Shown here one piece after another: positions 38,578-59,928 of a DNA stretch of 64,000 nt (its first letter is position 1; every line of letters starts with the position of its first letter). The DNA comes from an uncultured Candidatus Nitrosopumilus sp. (GTDB lineage Archaea > Thermoproteota > Nitrososphaeria > Nitrososphaerales > Nitrosopumilaceae), in contig CATOSM010000001.1 in the NCBI GenBank assembly GCA_951812645.1, positions 1,529,560 through 1,593,559 of the forward strand, read 5' to 3'. Made by a program: the position numbers and the translations under genes. Below the pieces are notes generated by a model that was given only the letters and a program-made list of their open reading frames with translations, made no database searches and had not been told where the DNA came from.

Positions 38578-39372
38578 TCACTCAATCACATTTGGTACTT
38601 GCTCTCTGATTTCAGACAACATTCTCCCAATCTCTATCGGATCATTGGTCAACCTAGTCAAACTGTGCAGATGCTTTTCCAGAGTATCTTCAGTGTTTTC
38701 AGGAAAGAACTGGTCTAAGCCAGTAAATATCACATTCTTGGTCTCACATTTTTTCAAGAAAAGATCTCTTATGTTTCCCTGAACTTTGTTCTCCTTGAGA
38801 AGCCTCCATGCATCATAATAATCTCTGACTTTTCCACGCTGAATAATTGAGCGAAGCTTTTCTGCAAGTATCGTCTCAAGTGAATACACCTTGACTGAAA
38901 ATCTGGGATAGTCATAGTGTCGAGGTACCTGCATTGTTACAGTTTCCCCAATTTCTTCCTCTCTTGTGATCTCTATCTTCACTGTAGCCTGTCCTGTTGG
39001 TCCCATGTACTTGAACTTGCTCTGAGGGTATCCCTGGTTTGTGTGAGGGGTGGTTCTTAGATTTACCGTAATCCCGCCTGACTTTTGCAGAATTGACGGC
39101 ACCTCACTTGAGAGAGGAGTGACAAATGCACTCCAGTCCTGGTCATTAATTGCGGTAAAATCAAGATCTTCGGACAGTCTCCACTGATCTGGAAAGTAAA
39201 CTTTTGAAAGTGCCGTGCCTCCCTGGAAAACAAGTTTGTCTGCAACCGAGCCAGAGGCAATTCCAAAGAGCATCCATCCAAGGACATAGTCTTTTTCAAC
39301 CATGTCCAAGCCAACCCGCATTTCCCGTGCCTTCCTTCTTAGTTCTTGGGATGCAATCACTACTGTCTCCAC
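38578..39372 (-). CDS. abiEii: AbiEii-type nucleotidyltransferase toxin
   Basis: 264 aa. LVFQGGTALSKVYFPDQWRLSEDLDFT is the AbiEii active site (GG-T-A-L-x-K ... R-x-SEDLDF), with ETILAEKLRSIIQRGKVRDYYDAW as the conserved downstream helix containing the K and RDYYD elements. Type IV toxin-antitoxin toxins of this class act as nucleotidyltransferases in abortive infection. It overlaps the antitoxin gene by 13 bases. Confidence 0.9.
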   Translation of the reverse strand: METVVIASQELRRKAREMRVGLDMVEKDYVLGWMLFGIASGSVADKLVFQGGTALSKVYFPDQWRLSEDLDFTAINDQDWSAFVTPLSSEVPSILQKSGGITVNLRTTPHTNQGYPQSKFKYMGPTGQATVKIEITREEEIGETVTMQVPRHYDYPRFSVKVYSLETILAEKLRSIIQRGKVRDYYDAWRLLKENKVQGNIRDLFLKKCETKNVIFTGLDQFFPENTEDTLEKHLHSLTRLTNDPIEIGRMLSEIREQVPNVIE

Positions 39373-40118
39373 CCCTCAGGATCGATTGCTGCGTTAATGA
39401 TCAGTGACCATTTTTCTTTTATCTTGCCCTTTTTTGGAGACAGAGTGTCAAGTGTGGAATATCCTTTTTTTATCGTTGCAATTGAGAGGATCTCTAGGCA
39501 TTCATTCAAATCAAAAATCTCCGAGAGATACCCAAGTCTTTTGATCACTGTGTTGTTTCCAATTTTTATTGCAAGCCTTGCCAGTTTTTTTAATTTCAGC
39601 TCATCCTTGGAGAAGTAGAGTGCCTTGGCAACTTCCTCAATCCCCCCTGCATGTTCTGGATGATCAAGGCAATCAACAAATGTTTTTTCTGCAGATGATA
39701 TGTTCACGTGGTTGTTTTCTACTGTTGTGGATTCTACGTCAAACATTTTTTTTGGCGTGATTGTGACAAACTTGAATTCCGTGTTTAGAATTTTTCGAGA
39801 GTTTCTTGGCTTTGGTGTTACAACATAAACATATGGCGGTGTCTGTTCTGTAAACCCGTAATGATCAAGTGCGCTCCAATACCCGATATAATACGGTCTT
39901 GTCAAAAGAGATCCCAAAACAAAGCTGTGCACAGTGTAGCTGTCTGCTCCCCCTTCTCCAGCTTCAAGGGGAGCAATAAGGTATACCTCTCTTCTGATTC
40001 TCAGTATCCATTTTTTACGGGCAAGCTGATCAAGAAAGTTTTTTGGCCTGTCTACCAGTTTTTTGATATCATCCAAAGTGAAGATGTTTTTATTTTTATA
40101 GCTTAGCTCTGATAGCAC
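39360..40118 (-). CDS. abiEi: AbiEi-type antitoxin
   Basis: 252 aa. N-terminal winged helix (FTLDDIKKLVDRPKNFLDQLARKKWILRI), then the AbiEi core PYYIGYWSALDHYGFTEQ, FKFVTITPKKMF and KTFVDCLDHPEHAGGIEEVAKAL. It represses its own operon and counters AbiEii. First gene of the two-gene operon. A paralogous pair lies at 50289-51945 in the opposite orientation. Confidence 0.9.
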   Translation of the reverse strand: MLSELSYKNKNIFTLDDIKKLVDRPKNFLDQLARKKWILRIRREVYLIAPLEAGEGGADSYTVHSFVLGSLLTRPYYIGYWSALDHYGFTEQTPPYVYVVTPKPRNSRKILNTEFKFVTITPKKMFDVESTTVENNHVNISSAEKTFVDCLDHPEHAGGIEEVAKALYFSKDELKLKKLARLAIKIGNNTVIKRLGYLSEIFDLNECLEILSIATIKKGYSTLDTLSPKKGKIKEKWSLIINAAIDPEGWRQ

Positions 40119-40344: not shown

Positions 40345-41213
40345 AACTTATCCTAAAACCCTCCAATACATCATGACGCATGCCAGATACACAAACCCGA
40401 GACAGTCATCACAGTTCCTTTCGTATCTGACTGCCGTCCTGTGAAGCCCGCACTTGAGCCAGGCAAGGAACCGTTCTACGACAAACCCTGTCTTGCCATG
40501 ATGTCTTTGATTCCTGTTTTGTGCAACGTTCTTTGGGTTCCTTTTGTATGAAATGCAACGGTCAATCCCATGGGATCTCAGTCTCTGATGTATGCCGCAT
40601 CGTATCCCTTGTCGGCATACGCTGAGATGATCTGCCGTATCAAATCATCACCTGCAGGTTCTGAGATGTTCTCTAACACATCAATGAATTTCGTACTGTC
40701 ATGGACATTTGCAGGGCTGGCCCTGATTGAGATTGGCAGTCCTGTCCTGTCTACTGCAACGTGTATTTTTGTGCCTAGGATCTTCTTGAACCCGTCATAT
40801 CCTGTTTTGTCCCCCCTTTTTTGGCGGCAATTGACGATGAATCAATCGATATTTTTTGCAGGCTGATTTTTCCCTGTCTGTGTGCGGATTTGATCAGTCC
40901 TGATAGAATCCCTTTCCATATTCCCTTTTGTTGCAGCTCTGAGAATCTCAGATGCGCAGTGGATTTTGAACCGTATCTGTCCGGCATGTCTGCCCACCTG
41001 CATCCGGTTGTTAGGACAAACAATATTCCGTTGACTGTGTTTCTGTCATTGCATCCTGGCCTGCCAGTTTTTGCAGGCTTTGGCAGATGTGTTGCAACCG
41101 TGTTCCATTGAATGTCTGACATTTCTTTGTGAATCATGAAAGATGTATCAGAGTCATTCTTAGATCCCGATTGTCATGAATTATTTACAAAATGATCGGT
41201 TTTAGGATGAGTT
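40345..41213 (-). mobile_element. IS5-type element, copy E
   Basis: About 869 bp, AACTTATCCTAAAACC (40345) to GGTTTTAGGATGAGTT (41198-41213). Same subtype as copies B and C. It interrupts a stretch between the RelE relic and a methyltransferase relic. Confidence 0.88.
40348..41137 (-). pseudogene. Transposase of IS copy E
   Basis: The N-terminal frame (40775-41137) is intact. The C-terminal frame is broken by a 4-base deletion near 40580 (ATAG missing compared with copies B and C). Confidence 0.7.
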
Positions 41214-41432: not shown

Positions 41433-44400
41433 TTAAGACTCGATTGTAGTTGTACAATCACAAAGACTGGTTATTTTGGATATCACCTTATCAATTTCCC
41501 TATCTGGATTTCTCCACCAGTCCCTACTCCATACTCGGACAAGTGTCCATCCTTTGGATTCCAAAAACTTTTGTCGTCTCACATCGCGCTCCTTGGCACT
41601 TGGACTAGAATGATAAGTTGCACCATCACACTCTATACCCAAGATGTACAAGTGGGGGTTGGCAGGATGAACCACCACCAAGTCTATCTTGTATCCTGAT
41701 ACACCATGCGATGTATGAACCGTATAATTTCTCTTTTCTAGTGCAGTGTGCACCTGTCTTTCAAAGTCAGAGTCAAAGTGCAGTGATTTATCATCATCTA
41801 CAAGATGCTCAGAGTTTATTTCACCAATAACATCATTTACCTTGTCTTTGTCTGACTGGCTTGTGGCCTTTGCATATTCAAGAAACTGCCGTAACCGCAA
41901 CGGTCCAAGGTTTTTGCTGGTATCTTTGATGTCTTGTGGGTTTATCGAGCACACTATAACCATCTCAGTACGGGCCCTAGTTACTGCGACATTTAGCCTG
42001 TTCTCACCGCCTGCAACACTTAGAGGACCAAACCTGTTTACAAACTTGCCATCAACATCAGGTGCATATCCTACTGAAAATATTATGACATCGCGCTCAT
42101 CACCCTGAACATTTTCAATGTTTCTAAAAAATGGCTGCTCGTCCCGTCCCTTGTTTACTGTCGCAGCAGTCACATGTCGTGCAAAGTCAATGTCCTCATC
42201 TATTTTTTTGTCATATAGGGTATGAATCAGATCCCTTTGCTCGTCATTAAACGTGATGACACCAATTGATTGATAGTCAGGTGCAGTATTTTTTAGTGTG
42301 TCATAAATTTCTTCTAGGACAGCTTGGGCTTCTTGGTGGTTTTGTCTCTTCTGCCATATGCCACTACATTGCACCCAACGGATTGGAGGATGCTGTGGGT
42401 CAGATATTACGTTTGGTGCCACCTGCAGTTTGCCGTCATAAAATGCATGGTTTGAAAAATTTATCAAATCCTGATACTTTGAGCGGTAGTGCCATGCAAG
42501 CTGCATCGGATGGTGCCGGACTAGTGCCATATCAAGCAGGCTCTTTTCTTCTAGTACATTATCGTCTTCCTCATATGGAATGTCCTCGTCTTTTACCTGG
42601 AACATGTCAAATGGCTGCAGCTGCTTGTCGTCTCCTGCAACTAACACATGCTTTGCCCTATACAGTACGGGTAGTACCCGCTCCACTGCAAGCTGGCTTG
42701 CCTCATCTATAATGACTAAATCAAACAAGTCACGTTGCAATGGAAAGATCTTGGATACTGATTCAGGGGATGCAAGCCAGCATGGTGCAATCTTTAGGAA
42801 TTGTTTTGAGTACTTTCCAAATAATTGCCTGACGGGTTTTACGCGTCTCTTCTTTTTTAACTCAGCACTAAAATCCTTCCAGTTTTGTTTTTCAGGAATC
42901 TTTGCTCGGCCATATATTTCATCAATATTTGCAGACCCTGCAATCTTTGCCTGTATGCTCTTTGCAACAATATCTTTTTTCTCATCTAATAGGGCAGACA
43001 GGGCGTCTCTGTTTTTGTTGTACTGTATGGTGGCATCGCCCTTGAGTATTGTATTTTCTGACTCTATTGTATGAATCCAGTACAGGTATACCTCCTGTCT
43101 TATTACATCAGACCATGCTTCATCTGGATTTAGTTTGTCTTTGCATAAGAGTAGCAGTTTTAAAATGTCAGGGTTTTCTGATATTTTTGCATCGTATGAC
43201 TGTAAGGAGTCAAAGTCAATCAGGCCGCCTTTTAATTTTTGCAGTTTTATCTTTAGTTGATCTGGTGCCTTGTGCAGATCATAAATCTCACTTTGGTGAT
43301 TTTCTTTAAAAAAAGTTGCAAGATGTAGCAATTCCGTCCAAAATGACACGCCCTTTGTTGCAGGTTCGGTTTTGTCTTGCACGTATTGTACTGTGATTTT
43401 ATCCACATCCAAGATGTTGTGTATTGCCTTTGCTGCCTTTTTTTGTCGCAGCCTAAACCATCCGGGATCATTTACGTATGTGTCAAGACTTTTTACCAGC
43501 TCGTCTTGCTGTTCCTTGCTTTGTGTTATTATTGCACTTTGCATGTACAATAGGATATAATCAATTGTGTGCATGATATTGGATTTGTCTTTGATTCCAA
43601 GTGTGTCAAAGCTCCGCCTGCCATGCCATGTATGCTCATCCAGTACAAACTGCTTGAAGAGTATCTCAATTTCTGAGAATGTCTCCAGGTAATCGTTTAG
43701 TTTGTTGTAATCTTCTGGTACCAGGTCAGAGATGTCAATCTTTGATGTGTATTCTGGCTCTGCCATGGAGTAAAGCTGCCGTATAGTTATTTTTCCAAAG
43801 TATGGCTGATGCAGTACACGTTGCCATCTTGTAAGAAACTTTATCTTGTCGTCTATCTGCCTTGATACATCCTCAATTGACGTAATGCCGACATCGTATA
43901 TGGTGTTGTCCTCTATGGTATTGCATAGTTTTTTGTATATCTTTTGCTTGTCTTGGCTTTCCTTGTCAAGCAATACTGTAAACTTGTCAAGGCCCACAGT
44001 GCCAAGTCTGTCATACACTACATCAAGTGCCGCCCTCTTTTGGCATACAAGTAAAACCTTTTTGGAGTTGACAAGTGCATCGCACATTAAATTTGTAATA
44101 ACCTGGGATTTTCCAGTACCAGGTGGCCCGCGTACCACTACCATTGATGACTGCTTTGACTCTAATATCACCATATCTTGAGTAGAGTCAGACTCTAGCA
44201 CGGTGTTTATTTGCTCATCTGCAACATCATCAAGGGAGGGTATGGAAGCATCATCTGCTTCTGTGTCTTCATAAATATCAAACAATACGCCTAGCGGGCC
44301 TGTATCAAGGGATGACGCATCTAGTAGTTTGCTGTAATCCTTGTATATTTCATTGTCAGCTTGTGGAAAGTTGCCAATTACCATATGGTTTTTGAGATGA

Positions 44401-45134
44401 AACTTTTGTTTTTCTAGATCTTCAATATCAGGCCTGCCCATTTCAGGTATTGCAGTTAGTTCAAAGTCATTCAGATTAGTCTCAAGTGGCAGTATGTCCT
44501 GCAGCCACTGGGTAACTCTTTTGAAAAACCCATCTGCAAGATCTGACTGATCATATTGTGTCATGTCATCGATTAGCGTGTCAAAAGTCTCCTCAATGCC
44601 ATCTGCAATGTCAAGCTCTGCATTTTTCTTTATTGCAGAAAGTAGCGCACCGTTAATTATTGGTTTAGAGTCAGAAAGGTTTAGCGTCCAGCCCTTGTTT
44701 ACTTGCGCGTTTTGGGACAAGGATAAGGGAAATAGTATCAGAGGGCCCCTTACAAAAAAGTCATCATTTGCATGGCCATACAAAAATGGAAACCCAAGAT
44801 AGCATACCTGCCGTCCTGTCTCATCTTCAATCTGTTTTATGTTGTAAGATAGTGTCTTTAGCTTGCGCCTTACAGTATCTGCATCATCACCTGTAGTTGA
44901 GTTTGACAATAGTAGTATAGATGAAGTGCTCCCCTTTACGGCCTTTTTGAATATCTTGTCGCATGCGGTCTGGTTAAACTGCGCTAGTGTGGTAAGATTA
45001 AAATTGTGCTTATCATAGGTCTTTTTGTACTGGACTGAGCGGTTTTTCTTTGTTGCCTGTAGTAGTTTTGTTTGATAACGTTTTAGGTTATGTTCAAGCT
45101 TGGTTAGTTGTGTTTTTTCCTCGCTTGTCAACAA
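41433..45134 (-). CDS. Giant SF1 helicase with C-terminal Vsr/MTES_1575-like nuclease
   Basis: 1233 aa. Residues 1-about 320 are an unassigned N-terminal region. Helicase core: Walker A VVRGPPGTGKSQ (about 335), LLVCQKRAALD, Walker B LVIIDEASQLAVE (about 807), VLVAGDDKQLQP, AWHYRSKYQDL, NVQGDERDVIIFSVGY and LNVAVTRAR. The last about 115 residues form a restriction-like nuclease: FDSDFERQVHTAL, GYKIDLVVVHP, GIECDGATYHSSPSAKERD and GWTLVRVWSRDWW. Such Upf1-type helicase plus MTES_1575 proteins occur in defence islands. It is the largest intact minus-strand gene here. Confidence 0.88.
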   Translation of the reverse strand: MLTSEEKTQLTKLEHNLKRYQTKLLQATKKNRSVQYKKTYDKHNFNLTTLAQFNQTACDKIFKKAVKGSTSSILLLSNSTTGDDADTVRRKLKTLSYNIKQIEDETGRQVCYLGFPFLYGHANDDFFVRGPLILFPLSLSQNAQVNKGWTLNLSDSKPIINGALLSAIKKNAELDIADGIEETFDTLIDDMTQYDQSDLADGFFKRVTQWLQDILPLETNLNDFELTAIPEMGRPDIEDLEKQKFHLKNHMVIGNFPQADNEIYKDYSKLLDASSLDTGPLGVLFDIYEDTEADDASIPSLDDVADEQINTVLESDSTQDMVILESKQSSMVVVRGPPGTGKSQVITNLMCDALVNSKKVLLVCQKRAALDVVYDRLGTVGLDKFTVLLDKESQDKQKIYKKLCNTIEDNTIYDVGITSIEDVSRQIDDKIKFLTRWQRVLHQPYFGKITIRQLYSMAEPEYTSKIDISDLVPEDYNKLNDYLETFSEIEILFKQFVLDEHTWHGRRSFDTLGIKDKSNIMHTIDYILLYMQSAIITQSKEQQDELVKSLDTYVNDPGWFRLRQKKAAKAIHNILDVDKITVQYVQDKTEPATKGVSFWTELLHLATFFKENHQSEIYDLHKAPDQLKIKLQKLKGGLIDFDSLQSYDAKISENPDILKLLLLCKDKLNPDEAWSDVIRQEVYLYWIHTIESENTILKGDATIQYNKNRDALSALLDEKKDIVAKSIQAKIAGSANIDEIYGRAKIPEKQNWKDFSAELKKKRRVKPVRQLFGKYSKQFLKIAPCWLASPESVSKIFPLQRDLFDLVIIDEASQLAVERVLPVLYRAKHVLVAGDDKQLQPFDMFQVKDEDIPYEEDDNVLEEKSLLDMALVRHHPMQLAWHYRSKYQDLINFSNHAFYDGKLQVAPNVISDPQHPPIRWVQCSGIWQKRQNHQEAQAVLEEIYDTLKNTAPDYQSIGVITFNDEQRDLIHTLYDKKIDEDIDFARHVTAATVNKGRDEQPFFRNIENVQGDERDVIIFSVGYAPDVDGKFVNRFGPLSVAGGENRLNVAVTRARTEMVIVCSINPQDIKDTSKNLGPLRLRQFLEYAKATSQSDKDKVNDVIGEINSEHLVDDDKSLHFDSDFERQVHTALEKRNYTVHTSHGVSGYKIDLVVVHPANPHLYILGIECDGATYHSSPSAKERDVRRQKFLESKGWTLVRVWSRDWWRNPDREIDKVISKITSLCDCTTTIES

Positions 45135-49575: not shown

Positions 49576-49713
49576 CTAAAGATCTAGCTCATCAATATCT
49601 TTAAGATGAAGATGCTTCTTGTGGATTTCGTACTGTACCAAATGTTCGGTATCTTTATCTTCCCATGTTGTTGCAACAATGGATTTTTCAATACTTTCAG
49701 ACGAGTTCCCCAT
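49576..49713 (-). CDS. 45-aa hypothetical peptide at IS boundary
   Basis: Reads MGNSSESIEKSIVATTWEDK and ends LHLKDIDELDL with TAG at 49576. The ATG is right at the junction with the IS fragment, so the true N terminus may have been removed. Confidence 0.35.
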   Translation of the reverse strand: MGNSSESIEKSIVATTWEDKDTEHLVQYEIHKKHLHLKDIDELDL

Positions 49714-49714
49714 G

Positions 49715-49976
49715 GGGATACGGTTCAAAGCCAATCCGCAGTTATGTAAAATCAAGAAACGTCATTCCGTGCATTCCCTTTAGAAAAAACGGCAGGACGG
49801 CAGATGATGATACGGACAAGGACAGTTACAACAGGACAAGGTTTGTAGTGGAACGGTTCTTTGCCTGGCTGAAAAACGGGTTTCACAGAACAAGATGTGA
49901 AAGAAACGCGGGAAATTATCCCGGGCTGGTTAGCATTGCGTCATTTTTGATGTATTGCAGGGTTTTAAGATGAGTT
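49715..49976 (+). mobile_element. Right-hand fragment of a copy-D-type IS
   Basis: The last about 262 bases of the element, from GGGATACGGTTCAAAGCC to the end repeat GGTTTTAAGATGAGTT. It encodes the transposase C terminus (RNVIPCIPFRKNGRTADD, VVERFFAWLKNGFHRT) with a small internal deletion. Confidence 0.8.
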
Positions 49977-50288: not shown

Positions 50289-51119
50289 TTGACACAAAAC
50301 ATACGTACAGGTATATCAAAAAAAGAAACTCATCTTCTGACTACTTTGTCAAACAAAGGTAAAACCACCATTGATTTGAAAGATATCTCAAAAACTTGGG
50401 GGGCATCATATGAGTATGCCAAAGTAATCGCAGATAGATTACGTAAGAAAAAATGGCTTATTCAAATTACAAAAGGACAATATCTTATTGCTCCTTTGAG
50501 TGCTGGTATGAAATCAGAATATACCGAACATGAATTTGTTATGGCAGCAAATCTTGCTCGCCAAAACCCATATTATATTGCATATTGGACGGCATTAAAT
50601 CACTACGGATATACTGAACAAACTTCATTTACAATTTTTGTAGCAACAACTGCTAGGATCAAAAAAAACAAAGTTCACGGAGTTGATTATCAATTTGTAA
50701 CAATAAACAAAAGAAAATTTTTTGGCACAAAAAATCATTTTATCGGAAATCAAAAAATCATCATATCTGATAAAAATAAAACGATTGTAGATTCTTTAGA
50801 TCATCCAGAATACTGTGGTGGAATTGCAGAAGTTGCCAAATGTTTATGGAATGCAAAAGAAGAAATTTCTTTTGAAAACATGGTTGATTATGCAAAGAAA
50901 ATGAATAACAGTACTGTGATTAAAAGACTTGGATTCCTGATTGATATGCTTGAATTACATGTATCTCCTTTACTCTATAATCAAATGAAGAATTCAATAG
51001 GTTCTGGTCGTTCTTGGTTGGATCCTTATTCTATTAAACACAAAAAATCTAATTTGAAATGGAAATTATTTGTTAATGTTCCACTGGAATCATTTTCAGA
51101 GATAAAATCTGCAACATAG
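50289..51119 (+). CDS. abiEi: AbiEi-type antitoxin (second system)
   Basis: 276 aa from a TTG start. Winged helix (TIDLKDISKTWGASYEYAKV ... RKKKWLIQI) followed by the AbiEi core NPYYIAYWTALNHYGYTEQ, YQFVTINKRKFFG and KTIVDSLDHPEYCGGIAEVA. Paralogue of the 39360-40118 protein but clearly divergent, with lower GC, so acquired separately or long diverged. Confidence 0.88.
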   Translation: MTQNIRTGISKKETHLLTTLSNKGKTTIDLKDISKTWGASYEYAKVIADRLRKKKWLIQITKGQYLIAPLSAGMKSEYTEHEFVMAANLARQNPYYIAYWTALNHYGYTEQTSFTIFVATTARIKKNKVHGVDYQFVTINKRKFFGTKNHFIGNQKIIISDKNKTIVDSLDHPEYCGGIAEVAKCLWNAKEEISFENMVDYAKKMNNSTVIKRLGFLIDMLELHVSPLLYNQMKNSIGSGRSWLDPYSIKHKKSNLKWKLFVNVPLESFSEIKSAT

Positions 51120-51156
51120 GTGATGTGATATTCTAACTAATGAACAAATTCGCATA

Positions 51157-51945
51157 TTGGCAAAAACATATTCAAAACCTGCAGGTGTAATTGACAAAGA
51201 TTATGCATTAGAATGGCTTCTATATGGAATATATCACAAAAATTCTCCAGTTAGAAATGATTTAATTCTCAAAGGGGGAACCTCAATAAGAAAAATTTTC
51301 TTTCCAGGTATTTGGAGATTTTCAGAAGATCTTGATTTTACTGTCATGCCTAATACTGATCCTGATAAGATTATTTCTGGCTTTGATAGCATCTATGAAA
51401 TTTTAGAAGATGAGAGTGGAATTCAATATGAAGGAGAAATAAATGTCCCAGATAGTGGTTTGGCCATGTTTGGGAATATTCATTTTACTGGGCCTATTGG
51501 CATGAAAAATAAAATCAAGGTTGATGCTTCAAGAGTTGAAAGAATGATTGATAGGATAATTCCACAAACGGTTACAGTTGCTTATCCAGATCTATCTGAT
51601 TTTTCTATTAACGGATATTCTCTGAATGAGGTAATTGCAGAAAAAATTCGTAGTATGATGCAACGTAGTAAAGTCAGAGATTATTATGATGTATGGAAGA
51701 TGTTTACAACTGATAAATCTCTAGATTCTTCAAAAATAGGAAAAATGGTTGTAGAAAAATGTAAAATTAGCAATATTGATTACAATCCAGCAAAAATCTT
51801 TGATTCTACACGCTTGAATGGATTGGGAGAATATTGGGAGAAAGATTTAGGGAGATTGATTGTAGACGATTTACCTAGTCCAAAAACAGTTTTTAAAAAC
51901 ATCAAAGGTCTTCTTACTTTCCTTCCTAATTCTGCCAAGACGTAA
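51157..51945 (+). CDS. abiEii: AbiEii-type nucleotidyltransferase toxin (second system)
   Basis: About 262 aa. LILKGGTSIRKIFFPGIWRF and FSEDLDFTVMP form the active site; EVIAEKIRSMMQRSKVRDYYD is the conserved C-terminal helix. The start is uncertain: sense sequence (DILTNEQIRILAKTYSKP) extends upstream of the TTG at 51157 back to a TGA but has no ATG. It lies 37 bases after abiEi. Confidence 0.87.
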   Translation: MAKTYSKPAGVIDKDYALEWLLYGIYHKNSPVRNDLILKGGTSIRKIFFPGIWRFSEDLDFTVMPNTDPDKIISGFDSIYEILEDESGIQYEGEINVPDSGLAMFGNIHFTGPIGMKNKIKVDASRVERMIDRIIPQTVTVAYPDLSDFSINGYSLNEVIAEKIRSMMQRSKVRDYYDVWKMFTTDKSLDSSKIGKMVVEKCKISNIDYNPAKIFDSTRLNGLGEYWEKDLGRLIVDDLPSPKTVFKNIKGLLTFLPNSAKT

Positions 51946-52477: not shown

Positions 52478-53340
52478 AACTCATCTTAAAACCTTGCAAT
52501 ACATCAAAAATGACGCAATGTTAACCAGCCCGAGATAGTTTCCCGCGTTTCTTTCATGTCTTGTTCTGTGAAACCCGTTTTTTAGCCAGGCAAAGAACCG
52601 TTCCACTGCAAACCTTGTCCTGCTGTAACTGTCCTTGCCTGCATCATCTGTCGTCCTTCTGTTTTTTCTAAAAGGAATGCGCGAAATGATGTTTCTTGAT
52701 TTTGCATAACTGCGGATTGGTTTTGAATCGTATCCCTTGTCTGCATAGACTGAAACTATCTGTTCCATCATGGAATCATCTACAAAATCCGAAATTGATT
52801 CCATCACATCTACGAATTTTGTACTGTCATGCTCATTTGCAGGGCTCATTACAATTGATACTGGCAAGCCGGTACCATCTGTTGCAACGTGTAATTTCGT
52901 GCCCGTGACTCTTGAATCCGTCAAATCCGATCACGTCGCCCCTTTTTTGGAGGGAATTGACGATGAATCAATCGATATTTTTTGCAGGCTGATTTTTTCC
53001 TGTCTGTGTACAGATTTTATCAGTTCTGATAGAATCCTTTTCCATGTTCCCTTTTGCTGCAGTTCTGAGAATCTCAGATGCGCGGTGGATTTTGAACCGT
53101 ATCTGTCCGGCATGTCTGCCCGCCTGCAGCCGGTTGTTAGGACAGACAATATTCCGTTGATTGTGTTTCTGTCATTGCATCCTGGCCTTCCTGTTTTTGC
53201 AGGCTTTGGCAGATGTGATAGAACCGTTCCATTGAACGTCTGACATTTCTTTGTGAATCATGAAAGATACGTCAGCAGGGTCATTCTTAGATCCCGATTG
53301 TCATGAATTATTTACAAAATGATCGGTTTTAGGATGAGTT
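52478..53340 (-). mobile_element. IS5-type element, copy H (mosaic)
   Basis: About 863 bp. Left end AACTCATCTTAAAACC belongs to the 'RNVIPCIPFRK' subtype and the right end GGTTTTAGGATGAGTT to the 'GIDCCIPYKR' subtype. The switch lies in the conserved part around 52930-53000. A recombinant of two ISs. Confidence 0.85.
52481..53249 (-). pseudogene. Transposase of IS copy H
   Basis: The N terminus carries the shared 2-base deletion, leaving a 72-aa middle frame (52931-53149); the C-terminal frame (52481-52924) is open and nearly intact with a few small deletions. Confidence 0.7.
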
Positions 53341-53399: not shown

Positions 53400-56300
53400 T
53401 TAATCAGGACGTTCCATTACACTAAGCAAAGTTAATGCTTCAGGCCATCCTGCCATAGCAAAAGTATCTAAAATAGTCAAACTCCTATTTCTATTTTCTT
53501 TACTTAATGAAGGGATTTGAAAAATTCCATTTAACATTTTGATTGTACCTCTTGCAAAAATTGGTTGGTATGGGGAATAATCTTCAACACTTGAGATTTT
53601 TTCTAAATAATCCAGGGTTTTTTCTGGAAGGTAATCCCAAAAATCTTCTAAGAAATGAACAAGATTTTCAATTATTTTTGGTTGCCAGGGTCTTTGTTCT
53701 ACTTCTTTAGATATAATATCTAAATGTGGAGATATTTTTTCTATCAATTGAGGTAAGTTAGATTCACTACTTTTTTCAATAGAATGAAGTAAGAAAAATG
53801 ATGAAGCTTCGCGTACTTTATGATCTTTATCTCTGGACAAGGTAAGAAATACCTCTAATGAATAATCTTGTGTTTCTAAATCATGCAAATAATGCTCTTT
53901 TAATACAAAAGGGATGTTGCGCCTAATTTCAGTTGCATATTGTTCATTGCTTTTTATAATTTCATCTAGTAGTGCTTTACTTTTTGCATTTTGTTTTTTC
54001 AATGCCAAATCTAATAACACATATTCTAAATTTTGGATGTATCGATAGTTTTTAGTTCCTGAAATTGTTAAAATATTCTTGATGATTGTTACTGTGTCAT
54101 CTGCATTTTTGTTAACTGTGTATCGAAGTATGTTGCTCAAATAAAATAAAACTCGATTATCTGTTTCTAGACTATAACGTAATGCTATTTCTAATGTTAA
54201 ATCATAATCTGTAAAAAACAAGTATTGTAATTCTTGGCCTACTTCTCCACGAACAATATTGACAGGATCCTTAGATAATTCAATAATTGAATTCTTCAAC
54301 GATTGTTCTTTAGTATGATAAAATAATCGTATTAATCCTCGTGCGATTAATCCTCTTATTGTTTGCTGTCTCATGATAAAAGTAGCATCTTCATCAACGG
54401 AATCTTCTTTAGGATCGGTAGAGTTTTTGTTTTGTAATAAATATTCTTTAATTTGGTTTAATTTTCCTTCATCTAATTCTTCAGTTTTTCTTCCTAAATA
54501 TTCAACAATTGAATCTAAGAGTTCGATCTTTTCATTAAATGAAATTTCTTGTTCAATATTTTTTTCGATGATTTTTTCAGGTTTTTCCTTTGGTGGTCTG
54601 GGTGCAGATTCTTCCATAGTTACTGAGATATCAGCGGGAGGTTCTGGAGTCAATAATTGTTTAGTGTACTTTGACAATAATGTTTTATGTTCTTCTGAAA
54701 GTAATGATGAATCAAATTCTGACAAATATTTTGCTTTTATTTCATTTAACATCCTATCATATTGCTCATCAGTAAAATCTTTCTTCTTAAATTCCAATGT
54801 TGAAATATTTTTCAACAAAACATCAATTTGAGTTTGGTTTAACGACATACATATTTTTTTGATTGAGGTTCGTACAGGTATTTCTAAGGAAGATGTTTTT
54901 ATTGCGGCTACAAGGGATATTTCCGTATAGATTTGTTCTTGAAAATCTTTTGGATATCGTAATAACATGTTAAGTAAAATTTTATGAAATAATGCTAGTC
55001 TAGTACTTTGTAGAATTGGCATAAATTCTAGAATTTCGTCTTTATCACATTCTAAAGTATAATTTTCAATTAATGAAACAAATTCATTTTCATCATGTAG
55101 TTTAGAAAACCCCGAGTTTCCATACCAAATATAGCTAAAATCTTCTATGATAGGATCTTCAGAAATCTCGAGATATTCTTTATTCCTCTTTTCAAATATT
55201 GAAATTACTGACTTTAACAAAAAGATCTTATTTTTATTAAATAGTTCTGCAAAGATTTGACCACATTCCCATTTTACATGTTGATTGTCTTGTCTTTTTG
55301 TACTAGTTAGTCCCAGAGTTCCATAAGACATCATTTCAGTATTCTCGTCAGATTTTTCTTCAAAGGTATACACATTAAAGAAAATTTCAGAAGATATTGT
55401 TGGTTCAGTTTCAATTAAGGCTGGTAAGCAAGAGATTGTCCCACTCCTAACTTGTGCTTCTGAATCTTTTGATAATTCAAGATACCATGCAGGTTTATCA
55501 TTCGTAATTATATTAGATGTAGATTCTATTGCTCGTTTTTTGATTAATGGATGTTCATCTTTCTTTATCATAGATTTTATGAGAGGTAGCATTTTTGTAT
55601 GAAGTGTGGAAAAATTTTCTAAAGATTTTATGTATTCAACTAAATATTGACCATTACCATTCTTTTCTTCATACCATTTTTTCAAAAAATTATCTGACCA
55701 ATTATCAAACCAAAAAGAATTCTTTTCCTTAGATACTTCTGCAAGAAAATGTCTTTGCAATGCTAGATCTTTTGTTAAAATTTCCCCTAAAGATGTTAAA
55801 TCATTATCTCCAAATGCCCAAATTTCAGATAAGGATTTCATTGCTGAAATTTTCCAATAATACTTTAGCTCAGACAAACATATTTCTGAAATATTTTCAA
55901 GGTATTTCTTCATATTTTGTGCATATAATAGTGAAAAAGTAAAAAGAATGGTTGGTCTCAAAAATACATTATATTCATTTTTCTTAATATAGTCAATCAT
56001 TGAATCAAATTTTTCCAAAATTAACTTGGATACAACATAATCTAGATATGCATGGTGGAAAAATTGTATTTTAGAATCTTTTAAATCAATTATATTTCTA
56101 CTTGCAATTTCATCTAAATGTGCTGAAGATTGTAAATTTGTTTTAGAAATTATAATCTTTTGTTCAAGAACCATCTCGTTTGCAATATCAAATAATGTAT
56201 TTGTTATTTCAAATGACTTATCTTGTTTGTCAACGTATTCATTCCAATGCTTGTTGTATAATTCAATTTCATTTGTAATTTTTGTAAAATCTATATTTTG

Positions 56301-57812
56301 ATTTTTTTGTATAATGAGCGAAAGTAGTTTTAGACGCAAAGGATTTGTCAAGATCTTTTTTAAGTTAGTAGGAATTGCAGGATTTCCTAATTGAGTTAAC
56401 GTTTGTTCTAATTCTTCATCATATAATTCGTTTAATGGTATTGATTTTCCCCAATCAGTTGTTGAAATTTGTGAAGAATATTCATAATCATACGAACGTA
56501 CTGAACATATTGTTTTAACTTTATTTGTACCCCATAGTAGTTTTAAGAATTGTTTGAACAACCCCATTGCTTTTGCATTTCTACTAATTGCATCTAAAGA
56601 GTCAAAAATTATGTATAATTTAGGCACTACAGGCCACTTTTCTAAAATTTTTGTTAACAATATGTCCAAATTCAGAAGATTGTCCAAATCACTAATTGAA
56701 TCAATATTTAGAAAATCATCACATCTAACAAATAATGTAAATTTTTCTGCTTGAACTAAATCCTCATATAATTGACATAAAATTACACTTTTTCCAGAAC
56801 CTTTGTCACCTGTAATAACAACACGATCATGATTAATCAATTGTGAAGTAATCTTTTTGATTTCGGCAGTTCTCCGAATTTCTTTATCATCTATTTTTCT
56901 GGAAATACTTTGCAAAACTCCATTGCTAATTGTCTTGATTTGTTCGTTAATTGAATCAATTAAAAGAGCCCCATTATTCACGTCATTATTCCCAGAATCT
57001 TGTGAATCAATACCGTTTGTTGGGTCATCTTCTGTTGTAGTTGATGAATTATCAGAATAGATCTCTAGATCTAATAATTTAGATTTTTCTTCAATTATAA
57101 TTTCTAAATACCATGTTTGTGTTTGTTCATTAACATTTTTGTTTGGAACAATAAAATTTTTATTAAATTCCCCATTAGAATTTATTTCAAGATCATCAAA
57201 GTATAATACACTCTCTGGAGGATCACTTAAAACCAAATTCGGAATATGAAGATAAACTTTTGAGTTTTCTGCAATTCGTTCAGAAGGAGAAAACAATACA
57301 TTACCAGATATTGAAACTTCTTCTCCACGATAATAAGATGATTTATTTGTTTGACAGGTGATATTGATTGAATTTTTATTTTTTATCTCTTGATAAATTT
57401 CTGCTTCTTTTTGAAAATAACCTACAGAAACTTTTCCTATTAATTCATCTTTGTTAAATTCATCAAGATTAATTTGATAATTGTTTACGTCAAGATAACG
57501 TATTTGATTTAATACAAATCTGGCATCTGGAAAAACTACGTAAAAGGTCCGTATCTTTCTAGTTTTGCAAAAATCATGTTCCCATTCTAACCAAGGTCTG
57601 CAAACATATCCGGATGTAATTACACAAATTAATAAATCAGAATCAACAATATTGGTTATGATTTTTTTAACAACATCATCACTTGGGGTTATATCATCAT
57701 TTGATAGAAATGCATTCATTTTGATTTCTGGACTTTGAAATTTTTCTTGCACAGACTTGCCATATGTTCCTCCCCCAATTTCTCTATGTGAAATGAAGAC
57801 CTTGCCTACCAC
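53400..57812 (-). CDS. TIR / beta-sandwich / STAND NTPase / repeat immune-type protein
   Basis: 1470 aa from a GTG start. Residues 1-about 140 look TIR-like: GKVFISHREIGGG, ITPSDDVVKKI, DSDLLICVITSGYVCRPWLEWEHDF (candidate catalytic Glu). About 160-260 is a beta-sandwich of the kind seen in archaeal surface proteins (SSYYRGEEVSISGNVLFSPS). A low-complexity linker precedes a NACHT/STAND ATPase: VVITGDKGSGKSVIL (Walker A, about 339), LYIIFDSLDAI (Walker B, about 400) and ICSVRSYDYEY. From about 600 to the end are helical repeats, HEAT-like, split by a charged linker near 1070-1090. The architecture matches intracellular immune receptors (Avs-like STANDs), where ligand binding by repeats triggers a TIR NADase. 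No partner gene needed. Confidence 0.78.
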   Translation of the reverse strand: MVGKVFISHREIGGGTYGKSVQEKFQSPEIKMNAFLSNDDITPSDDVVKKIITNIVDSDLLICVITSGYVCRPWLEWEHDFCKTRKIRTFYVVFPDARFVLNQIRYLDVNNYQINLDEFNKDELIGKVSVGYFQKEAEIYQEIKNKNSINITCQTNKSSYYRGEEVSISGNVLFSPSERIAENSKVYLHIPNLVLSDPPESVLYFDDLEINSNGEFNKNFIVPNKNVNEQTQTWYLEIIIEEKSKLLDLEIYSDNSSTTTEDDPTNGIDSQDSGNNDVNNGALLIDSINEQIKTISNGVLQSISRKIDDKEIRRTAEIKKITSQLINHDRVVITGDKGSGKSVILCQLYEDLVQAEKFTLFVRCDDFLNIDSISDLDNLLNLDILLTKILEKWPVVPKLYIIFDSLDAISRNAKAMGLFKQFLKLLWGTNKVKTICSVRSYDYEYSSQISTTDWGKSIPLNELYDEELEQTLTQLGNPAIPTNLKKILTNPLRLKLLSLIIQKNQNIDFTKITNEIELYNKHWNEYVDKQDKSFEITNTLFDIANEMVLEQKIIISKTNLQSSAHLDEIASRNIIDLKDSKIQFFHHAYLDYVVSKLILEKFDSMIDYIKKNEYNVFLRPTILFTFSLLYAQNMKKYLENISEICLSELKYYWKISAMKSLSEIWAFGDNDLTSLGEILTKDLALQRHFLAEVSKEKNSFWFDNWSDNFLKKWYEEKNGNGQYLVEYIKSLENFSTLHTKMLPLIKSMIKKDEHPLIKKRAIESTSNIITNDKPAWYLELSKDSEAQVRSGTISCLPALIETEPTISSEIFFNVYTFEEKSDENTEMMSYGTLGLTSTKRQDNQHVKWECGQIFAELFNKNKIFLLKSVISIFEKRNKEYLEISEDPIIEDFSYIWYGNSGFSKLHDENEFVSLIENYTLECDKDEILEFMPILQSTRLALFHKILLNMLLRYPKDFQEQIYTEISLVAAIKTSSLEIPVRTSIKKICMSLNQTQIDVLLKNISTLEFKKKDFTDEQYDRMLNEIKAKYLSEFDSSLLSEEHKTLLSKYTKQLLTPEPPADISVTMEESAPRPPKEKPEKIIEKNIEQEISFNEKIELLDSIVEYLGRKTEELDEGKLNQIKEYLLQNKNSTDPKEDSVDEDATFIMRQQTIRGLIARGLIRLFYHTKEQSLKNSIIELSKDPVNIVRGEVGQELQYLFFTDYDLTLEIALRYSLETDNRVLFYLSNILRYTVNKNADDTVTIIKNILTISGTKNYRYIQNLEYVLLDLALKKQNAKSKALLDEIIKSNEQYATEIRRNIPFVLKEHYLHDLETQDYSLEVFLTLSRDKDHKVREASSFFLLHSIEKSSESNLPQLIEKISPHLDIISKEVEQRPWQPKIIENLVHFLEDFWDYLPEKTLDYLEKISSVEDYSPYQPIFARGTIKMLNGIFQIPSLSKENRNRSLTILDTFAMAGWPEALTLLSVMERPD

Positions 57813-57941
57813 AATAATGATTTACCCATCTCGTTTTAAGGATTGTGCCATTTGTTAAGAATTTATGAATAAAATTTTAATTAAATTCTGTAAAAATTAT
57901 ACATTGTACTATTGTTTTATGCCTAATTTTACACTTATAAT

Positions 57942-57996
57942 ACAGAATCCTGTGTAAGCTTTATATTTAACACAGAATATACAGAAAACTGTATAT
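57942..57996 (+). promoter_or_regulatory. Operators and promoter of RHH gene
   Basis: ATATACAG-AAAA-CTGTATAT is a perfect 8-bp dyad at 57977-57996 that covers the ATG at 57995. A second ACAG-N4-CTGT site is at 57942-57953, 39 bases upstream. A TATA-like TTTATATTTAA lies between (57960-57970). Typical spacing for ribbon-helix-helix autoregulation. Confidence 0.6.
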
Positions 57997-58510
57997 GGCT
58001 AAAAATGTAACTATTGCAATCCCAAACGAATTAAATAAAAAAATGGATCAACTTGAAGAAGTTAATTGGTCCGCAGTTGCCAGAAAGGCAATTGAGGAAT
58101 ATCTTGAAACTCGAACACACCCTGAATTAGAATCAATTATTCAGAGATTAACTAAGGAAAAAAAAGAAGAATATGTTAAGGGAGTAAAAACTGCAACTTC
58201 AATTGCAACAACTGCATCTTATCTAGATTTGAATCAGGTTTTTGAACATTATGATTTTGAATATGATAAACAAGTGACTCAAAAGAATCAGAAAATTCAA
58301 GAGAAATTTGAAAGGCTACATCGACATAGTCAAATATTTGGTCTTGAAGCTAATATTCCATATATAATTCTGAAAGATAAAGAAAAATTTTCTATGTTTG
58401 CAAATGTAGTGTATGATGAGGGTTTAATGAAGAAGAAAATAAACACTATAGAATTCAATAGAGGTTTGTTTGAAACATTATTTGATTTTAAAGAGAAACT
58501 TAAGGTGTAA
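57995..58510 (+). CDS. Ribbon-helix-helix DNA-binding protein
   Basis: 171 aa. KNVTIAIPNELNKKMDQLEEVNWSAVARKAIEEYLE (residues 3-38) is a CopG/Arc-type ribbon-helix-helix. The rest is helical with a possible ligand or partner domain (FERLHRHSQIFGLEANIPYI). Divergent from the STAND gene across 182 bases; it overlaps its own operator, so it is probably autoregulated and could also repress the STAND gene. Confidence 0.75.
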   Translation: MAKNVTIAIPNELNKKMDQLEEVNWSAVARKAIEEYLETRTHPELESIIQRLTKEKKEEYVKGVKTATSIATTASYLDLNQVFEHYDFEYDKQVTQKNQKIQEKFERLHRHSQIFGLEANIPYIILKDKEKFSMFANVVYDEGLMKKKINTIEFNRGLFETLFDFKEKLKV

Positions 58511-58514
58511 TATA

Positions 58515-58736
58515 TTGAAAATTAAAAACAAAAATAATTTTAAAATTATTCTTGCTCTAATTTCATGGGTGATTATTATGATAATTTTATTCACAGGTAC
58601 TATTGAATTAGAACCCAAAGGTCACATTGAGATTGCAGCGATTGTTTCGTTTGCAGTATTAATTTTGATGATACATTTAGTTGGAATTATCAAAAAATAT
58701 GTAATTCAACAAGTAAAATTAAAATTTATTAATTAA
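58515..58736 (+). CDS. Small two-helix membrane protein
   Basis: About 73 aa from the TTG at 58515, four bases after the RHH stop. Two hydrophobic helices (IILALISWVIIMIILFTGT and AAIVSFAVLILMIHLVGII) and a basic C terminus. Same operon as the RHH gene. Function unknown. Confidence 0.55.
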   Translation: MKIKNKNNFKIILALISWVIIMIILFTGTIELEPKGHIEIAAIVSFAVLILMIHLVGIIKKYVIQQVKLKFIN

Positions 58737-59056: not shown

Positions 59057-59928
59057 AACTTATCCTAAAACCGATCATTTTGTAAATAATTCATGACAAT
59101 CGGGATCCAAGAATGACCCTGCTGATGCATCCTTCGTGATTCACAAAGAAATGTCAGACATTCAATGGAACAGTTCTATCACATCTGCCAAAACCTGCAA
59201 AAACCGGAAGGCCAAGATGCAATGACAGAAACACAATCAACGGAATATTGTCTGTCCTAACAACAGGATGCAGGCGGGCAGACATGCCGGACAGATACGG
59301 TTCAAAATCCACCGCACATCTGAGATTCTCAGAGCTGCAGCAAAAGGGAATATGGAAAAGGATTCTATCAGGACTGATAAAATCCGCACACAGACAGGGA
59401 AAAACCAGCCTGCAAAAAATATCAATTGATTCATCGTCAATTGCCGCCAAAAAAGGGGGGACAAAACAGGATATGACGGGTTCAAGAGGATCCTGGGCAC
59501 AAAAATACACGTTGCAGTAGACGGGACAGGACTGCCAATCTCAATCAGGGCCAGCCCTGCAAATGTCCATGACAGTACGAAATTCATTGATGTGTTGGAA
59601 AACATCCCAGAACCTGCAGGTGATGATTTGATACGGGAGATCATCTCAGCGTATGCCGACAGGGGATACGATGCGGCATACATCAGAGACTATCTGGGAT
59701 GCCATGGGATTGACTGTTGCATTCCATACAAAAGGAACCCAAGGAACGTTGCACAAAACAGGAATCAAAGACATTATGGCAAGGCAGGGTTTGTCGTAGA
59801 GCGGTTCCTTGCCTGGCTCAAGTGCGGACTTTACGGGACGGCAGTCAGATACGAAGGGAACTGACAACTATTTTGGATTTGTGTATCTGGCATGCGTCAT
59901 GATGTATTGGAGGGTTTTAGGATAAGTT
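59057..59928 (+). mobile_element. IS5-type element, copy I
   Basis: About 872 bp with perfect 16-bp ends AACTTATCCTAAAACC and GGTTTTAGGATAAGTT. 'GIDCCIPYKR' subtype. It lies between the Cas1 relic and the duplicated tRNA flank. Confidence 0.9.
59150..59890 (+). pseudogene. Transposase of IS copy I
   Basis: The N-terminal frame is broken by the shared 2-base deletion, the middle frame (59248-59520) and the C-terminal frame (59592-59864) are open, and a TGA after YEGN truncates the last residues. Confidence 0.7.

Follow-up and report, generated by a model that had tools for sequence, protein, structure and literature searches.

The window analysed here is a 64,000-nucleotide stretch of an uncultured Candidatus Nitrosopumilus sp. 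(contig CATOSM010000001.1, positions 1,529,560 to 1,593,559 of the forward strand), and the element in question is one long gene on its reverse strand (53400..57812 (-)) that encodes a candidate immune receptor of 1470 amino acids. The reading frame runs through 1470 codons with zero internal stops, and its GTG start is backed by the homologues, whose own starts coincide with it: a GTG in L016 and an in-frame ATG in L017. From the N- to the C-terminus the protein is composed of a TIR domain (residues 1-125), an immunoglobulin (Ig)-like beta-sandwich (149-252), a STAND ATPase (286-625) and an all-helical solenoid (626-1470). The contig is 1.86 Mb long, within an assembly of 2.2 Mb, and the estimated contamination of the bin is 8.8%; archaeal-looking genes on the same contig encode an OGG-type glycosylase, a beta-CASP nuclease and a TGT-family enzyme.

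This architecture is real, conserved and rare, and it is a new variant among STAND-type defence receptors. An earlier note on this DNA, made from the sequence alone, had not recognised the domain order as any described family and had proposed looking for the same order in other archaea. None of the Pfam, NCBIfam or PADLOC models in our scan of the receptor accounts for this order, and full-length homologues were found in two further metagenome-assembled genomes, Cenarchaeum sp. SB0675_bin_21 (L017) and Nitrosopumilaceae archaeon p16x60bins.31, which share 41% identity with the receptor and keep all four parts. Because two independent full-length homologues retain every part, the order is a selected one, and a chance fusion or an assembly chimera is ruled out. 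The four-part receptor is present in 3 of the 250 family genomes. The genome-wide scan relied on short exact peptide patterns, and further members may have escaped it. TIR domains as such occur in 41 of the 250, and these three proteins are the only frames of more than 700 amino acids that carry one. No relatives were found on viral contigs, and plasmids yielded partial similarity only, with no match extending over 80% of the query.

The TIR domain (57438..57812 (-)) is identified by the Pfam family TIR_2, which scores 29.2 bits in the genome scan and 24.7 bits in a plain hmmscan against a cut-off of 28, and which scores 33.1, above the cut-off, in the Cenarchaeum homologue. A profile built from seven TIRs reaches solved TIR structures in the PDB with a best E-value of 2.6e-9; Cat1, a bacterial TIR, tir-1 and AbTIR head the matches, which also include SARM1, Roq1 and RPP1. 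The AlphaFold2 (AF2) model shows, with moderate confidence, strands and helices alternating as in a TIR, so that the TIR-like N terminus claimed in the earlier note holds up. When the N-terminal model, which spans two domains, was compared by Foldseek with PDB and viral structures, the top matches were GH3 enzymes and others that aligned across both domains with low TM-scores, and the TIR call is for this reason based on profiles and topology. The W-x2-E-x-E motif proposed for this region reads in fact W74-L-E-W77-E78; all three receptors agree only in W74, W77 and E78, while the first Glu is not conserved. Glu78 (codon 57579-57581 (-)) is invariant across the seven aligned TIRs and falls in the catalytic column of SARM1 and tir-1, where it aligns with the W-V-H-K-E of tir-1 (W+4). 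As Cat1, AbTIR and SARM1 are NAD-cleaving TIRs, the TIR appears by profile to be of this type, with a putative catalytic Glu in place. A TIR domain also stands at the C-terminus of an archaeal protein of G406 (L010:979-1806), whose N-terminal region is unassigned.

The new and surprising element is the domain that lies between this effector and the STAND switch. Residues 149-252 (57057..57368 (-)) are predicted by AF2 to form a beta-sandwich with a predicted local distance difference test (pLDDT) score mostly of 73-93, which confirms the sandwich while shifting its limits from the residues 160-260 first suggested. The receptor sandwich itself has no direct match to Pfam MG2 (PF01835), and the link to MG2 runs through secreted homologues that themselves match this family. 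A profile of the three receptor sandwiches finds matches in 101 of the 250 family genomes at an E-value of at most 0.01, where 2-3 would be expected by chance. Among 22 matches that we fetched, nearly all complete ones begin with a signal-peptide-like segment, many have a membrane or PEFG-type anchor at their end, and the long ones carry MG2 repeats together with a lamin-tail domain. In the reverse direction, a profile built solely from six secreted proteins recovers all three receptors at the same place, with domain E-values of 1.6e-14, 1.9e-12 and 1.2e-8 in a set of 12 proteins and domain scores of 51, 44 and 32 bits compared to a best score of 11.7 bits in 9000 shuffles. These E-values lean towards homology because the six proteins had been picked for matching the receptors, although the margin is large. 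On this two-way profile evidence the sandwich is homologous to the MG2-type repeats of secreted Nitrosopumilaceae surface proteins, which bears out its description as surface-protein-like. The secreted proteins (L013, L014, L032, L036 and L037) share with the receptor an MG2-like domain with the motif T-[DN]-K-x2-Y-x2-G-[DE]-x-V-x-[IV]-[ST]-G, and differ from it in having signal peptides, often C-terminal anchors, and neither TIR nor STAND. The receptor sandwich may have been derived from the surface proteins of this lineage, but the sandwich family is not limited to the Nitrosopumilaceae, and matches to it also occur elsewhere in the phylum. The surface-type domain had raised the idea of a secreted or membrane-bound receptor; this was rejected, as the receptor begins with its TIR and has no hydrophobic segment of sufficient length or strength to serve as a signal peptide or to cross a membrane. 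A Ser/Thr/Asp/Asn-rich, flexible linker follows (residues 253-285, 56958..57056 (-)), with 14-23% identity and pLDDT mostly below 50.

The P-loop ATPase and the roughly 850 residues of helical repeats described in the earlier note were both recovered. The STAND module (55938..56957 (-)) has sub-threshold Pfam matches to nSTAND3 (25.1 against 27.2) and NACHT, and a match with an E-value of 1.7e-9 links it to PDB 9n00, a solved ATPase of the AAA family. Its Walker A (G-x-K/R-GSGKS, residues 333-343, 56784-56816 (-)), Walker B (II-x-DSLDAI, residues 398-409, 56586-56621 (-)) and NACHT-type winged-helix motif FFHHAYLDY (residues 584-592, 56037-56063 (-)) are conserved in the three homologous receptors, which together with the order of effector, NTPase and repeats places the protein among the STAND proteins. 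The PADLOC family PDC-M54A, a candidate STAND defence family, matches the receptor body with an E-value of 2e-45 and also matches the homologues. The remaining 845 or so residues form a HEAT/ARM-like solenoid and predicted sensor (53403..55937 (-)), identified by a HEAT match, by PDC-M54A matches in the repeat region and by the AF2 model, which is all-helical with pLDDT mostly 60-88 outside the linkers; a Pro/Glu-rich linker interrupts it at about residues 1054-1090. Foldseek of the body returns importin-beta, CAND1 and Avs4 bound to a phage portal, with Avs4 being the sole STAND protein among the top 50 PDB fold matches and the one with the highest TM-score.

Comparison with known systems shows that the body belongs to an established chassis. 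Three proteins from Rhizobium (L025), Agrobacterium (L027) and Streptomyces (L023) match PDC-M54A end to end and have STAND core and repeat-body parts in register with the receptor, but their N-terminus is not a TIR (the only one of the three with a named N-terminal match has a region like the LmuA nuclease) and they have no MG2-like insert. The receptor's own PDC-M54A match starts at residue 318-319 (profile position 307-309) and leaves the N-terminal 300 profile positions unmatched. A Nostoc sp. C057 protein (L024) places a TIR-like SEFIR effector (8-139) on a PDC-M54A-type STAND (from about 212), with about 70 residues and no insert between them. In a phylum sample, only this genome and G037 have PDC-M54A matches that reach past the P-loop; G037 is a Nitrosopumilaceae genome whose DUF4062-STAND protein is the closest other relative of the body (30% STAND identity), with DUF4062 in place of the TIR, no MG2 domain and two overlapping frames. 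A 2026 preprint (PMC13174449) presents DUF4062 as a TIR-like NADase that acts against phages, which makes this effector NADase-type by family. The two G037 frames, DUF4062-STAND and HEAT (L020:10079-14150), overlap by 26 bases at the border of STAND and solenoid and may represent a two-subunit version, a frameshifted gene or an assembly error. The MG2-like insert is absent from every examined relative with another effector. Since nuclease, SEFIR or DUF4062 occupies the effector position in these relatives, the body is best viewed as a defence chassis with exchangeable effectors. The Avs (AVAST) receptors, such as Avs4 (PDB 8dgf), share the order of effector, STAND and repeats, but the receptor differs in its TIR effector and Ig-like insert, and the global TM-score is low (0.34). 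TIR-STAND proteins in general are already known, with N-terminal TIRs on STAND targets reported in PMC10907252. Plant TIR-NLRs with a C-JID (Roq1, RPP1) likewise unite a TIR, an ATPase of the STAND class, repeats and an Ig-like beta-sandwich within a single chain, and the TIR profile matches both; however, their ATPase is of the NB-ARC type, their repeats are leucine-rich and not helical, and the C-JID follows these repeats at the C-terminus and shows no sign of homology to the receptor sandwich, which lies between TIR and STAND in a protein whose C-terminus is all-helical. The proposal of a new immune receptor architecture thus stands for the arrangement of effector and insert, and not for a wholly new class, as the body is that of the known PDC-M54A/Avs-like chassis.

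From the architecture, the relatives and the island context we infer an immune function, and we estimate at about two in three the probability that the protein is a stand-alone, cytosolic, NLR-like antiviral receptor working as follows. The C-terminal solenoid would bind a viral protein, by analogy with Avs and Avs5, and this binding would load the STAND ATPase with ATP and lead to oligomerisation. The N-terminal TIRs, thus clustered, would cleave NAD+ and bring about growth stop or death of the infected cell, that is, abortive infection; Avs5 with its Sir2 NADase also cleaves NAD+ (PMC12931631). The position of the MG2-like domain makes a rigid spacer or collar its most likely role, one that would position the TIRs or keep them apart, both at rest and after assembly. 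That the receptor appears to work alone is suggested by the lack of any neighbour common to the homologues. Several points count against this proposal: the TIR_2 score of the window protein lies close to the Pfam cut-off, no Avs model (Avs1-5) appears in the PADLOC hmmscan at E-values up to 1, and AF2 confidence is low in the STAND part, so that the STAND fold rests on sequence motifs and profiles. In addition, a TIR can serve as a scaffold or make signal nucleotides rather than deplete NAD+.

The last of these points allows for a Thoeris-like mechanism, in which the TIR would make a signalling nucleotide that activates a separate effector. The TIR does match the NCBIfam model of Thoeris type III ThcB4 (E-value 1e-7), but weakly, at 31.1 bits compared to a cut-off of 220, and as no conserved partner gene lies beside any of the three receptors and the DUF4062 relative suggests direct NAD+ hydrolysis, we consider this mechanism unlikely. 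About as doubtful, yet kept in view, is a role of the insert in recognition, because plant TIR-NLRs bind pathogen effectors by their Ig-like C-JID (PMC8813719). The MG2-like domain would then be an integrated decoy, a copy of a surface-protein domain recognised by the receptor-binding protein of a virus, so that freshly synthesised viral adhesin would bind it inside the cell and fire the receptor. Its homology to secreted surface proteins and its absence from relatives with other effectors would suit a decoy, as would its rank among the fastest-diverging parts (27-29% identity compared to about 50% in STAND). However, identity across the receptors is 27-31% in the MG2-like domain and in the TIR and 47-64% in STAND, and since the TIR diverges as fast (30%), rapid divergence is not specific to the insert; moreover, its placement between effector and ATPase suits a spacer, and sensing usually falls to the solenoid.

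Two further explanations would remove the antiviral role of the receptor or tie it to a neighbour, and we regard both as very improbable. Large STAND proteins also act in regulation, and a surface-type domain in the receptor could point to a non-immune regulator of host physiology or surface structure, but the restriction to three family genomes, the low GC (guanine-plus-cytosine) content, the defence-rich island and the exchangeable-effector chassis all speak for defence. A toxin-antitoxin pair, with the TIR-STAND protein as a toxin regulated or neutralised by an adjacent ribbon-helix-helix (RHH) protein, is suggested by the divergent RHH gene 182 bp away and its palindromic putative operators; against it, the palindromes hug the RHH start, the two genes do not form an operon, and neither homologue has the RHH gene next to it.

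As a cytosolic antiviral receptor, the protein would extend a TIR-NLR-like design, familiar above all from plants, to ammonia-oxidising archaea, a group in which defence against viruses has received little study. The receptor adds TIR to the nuclease-like, SEFIR and DUF4062 effectors swapped on one STAND-repeat chassis, and it reuses a surface-protein domain family within a cytosolic receptor. This opens a direct test for integrated decoys in prokaryotic NLR-like proteins, as are known in plant ones; should the insert prove to be a decoy, an archaeal TIR-NLR with a captured surface domain of its own lineage would be the prokaryotic counterpart of plant integrated-decoy NLRs.

The surroundings of the receptor gene are those of a defence island. 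The RHH gene runs in the opposite direction (57995..58510 (+)) and encodes a CopG/VapB-like protein of 171 amino acids with weak RHH_3 and VapB-like matches. The palindrome TACAGAATCCTGTGTA (57941..57956 (+)), with 3 matches in the window compared to 0.45 expected, and a second one around ATATACAG-AAAA-CTGTATAT (57978..57995 (+)), which overlaps the RHH start, are putative RHH operators; they lie at the start of the RHH gene and the genome holds just one other site, which fits local autoregulation. The RHH regulator with operators that the earlier note placed beside the receptor is thus present, but it is not conserved with it: neither an RHH gene nor any other shared neighbour lies beside the two homologues. 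The gene is probably not part of the receptor system, and a joint system of the two was rejected on this ground. An 88-aa open reading frame, probably with two transmembrane segments and without a Pfam family, overlaps the end of the RHH gene (58470-58736 (+)).

The receptor gene has a GC content of about 28%, whereas much of the sequence on either side has about 38-40%, a difference consistent with lateral transfer. The window holds two separate AbiEi/AbiEii type IV toxin-antitoxin pairs (38578-40118 (-) and 50289-51945 (+)), at most 13 kb apart, and a helicase-nuclease of 1233 amino acids (41433-45134 (-)) that has AAA_11/AAA_12, DUF4011 and MTES_1575 domains and strong PADLOC matches to PDC-S37 and Hhe, and is probably another defence gene. 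Insertion of the island at tRNA-Arg would be marked by a second copy of the tRNA 3' end, but the window contains none. Several remnants of IS4/IS5-type transposases with near-identical stretches are spread across the island (40775-41137, 49665-49973, 52481-53149 and 59154-59902). Upstream of the Cenarchaeum homologue lies a row of genes (L017:1577-7742) for an SNF2 helicase, a NO VEIN domain protein, an EcoO109I-type restriction enzyme and a DNA methylase.

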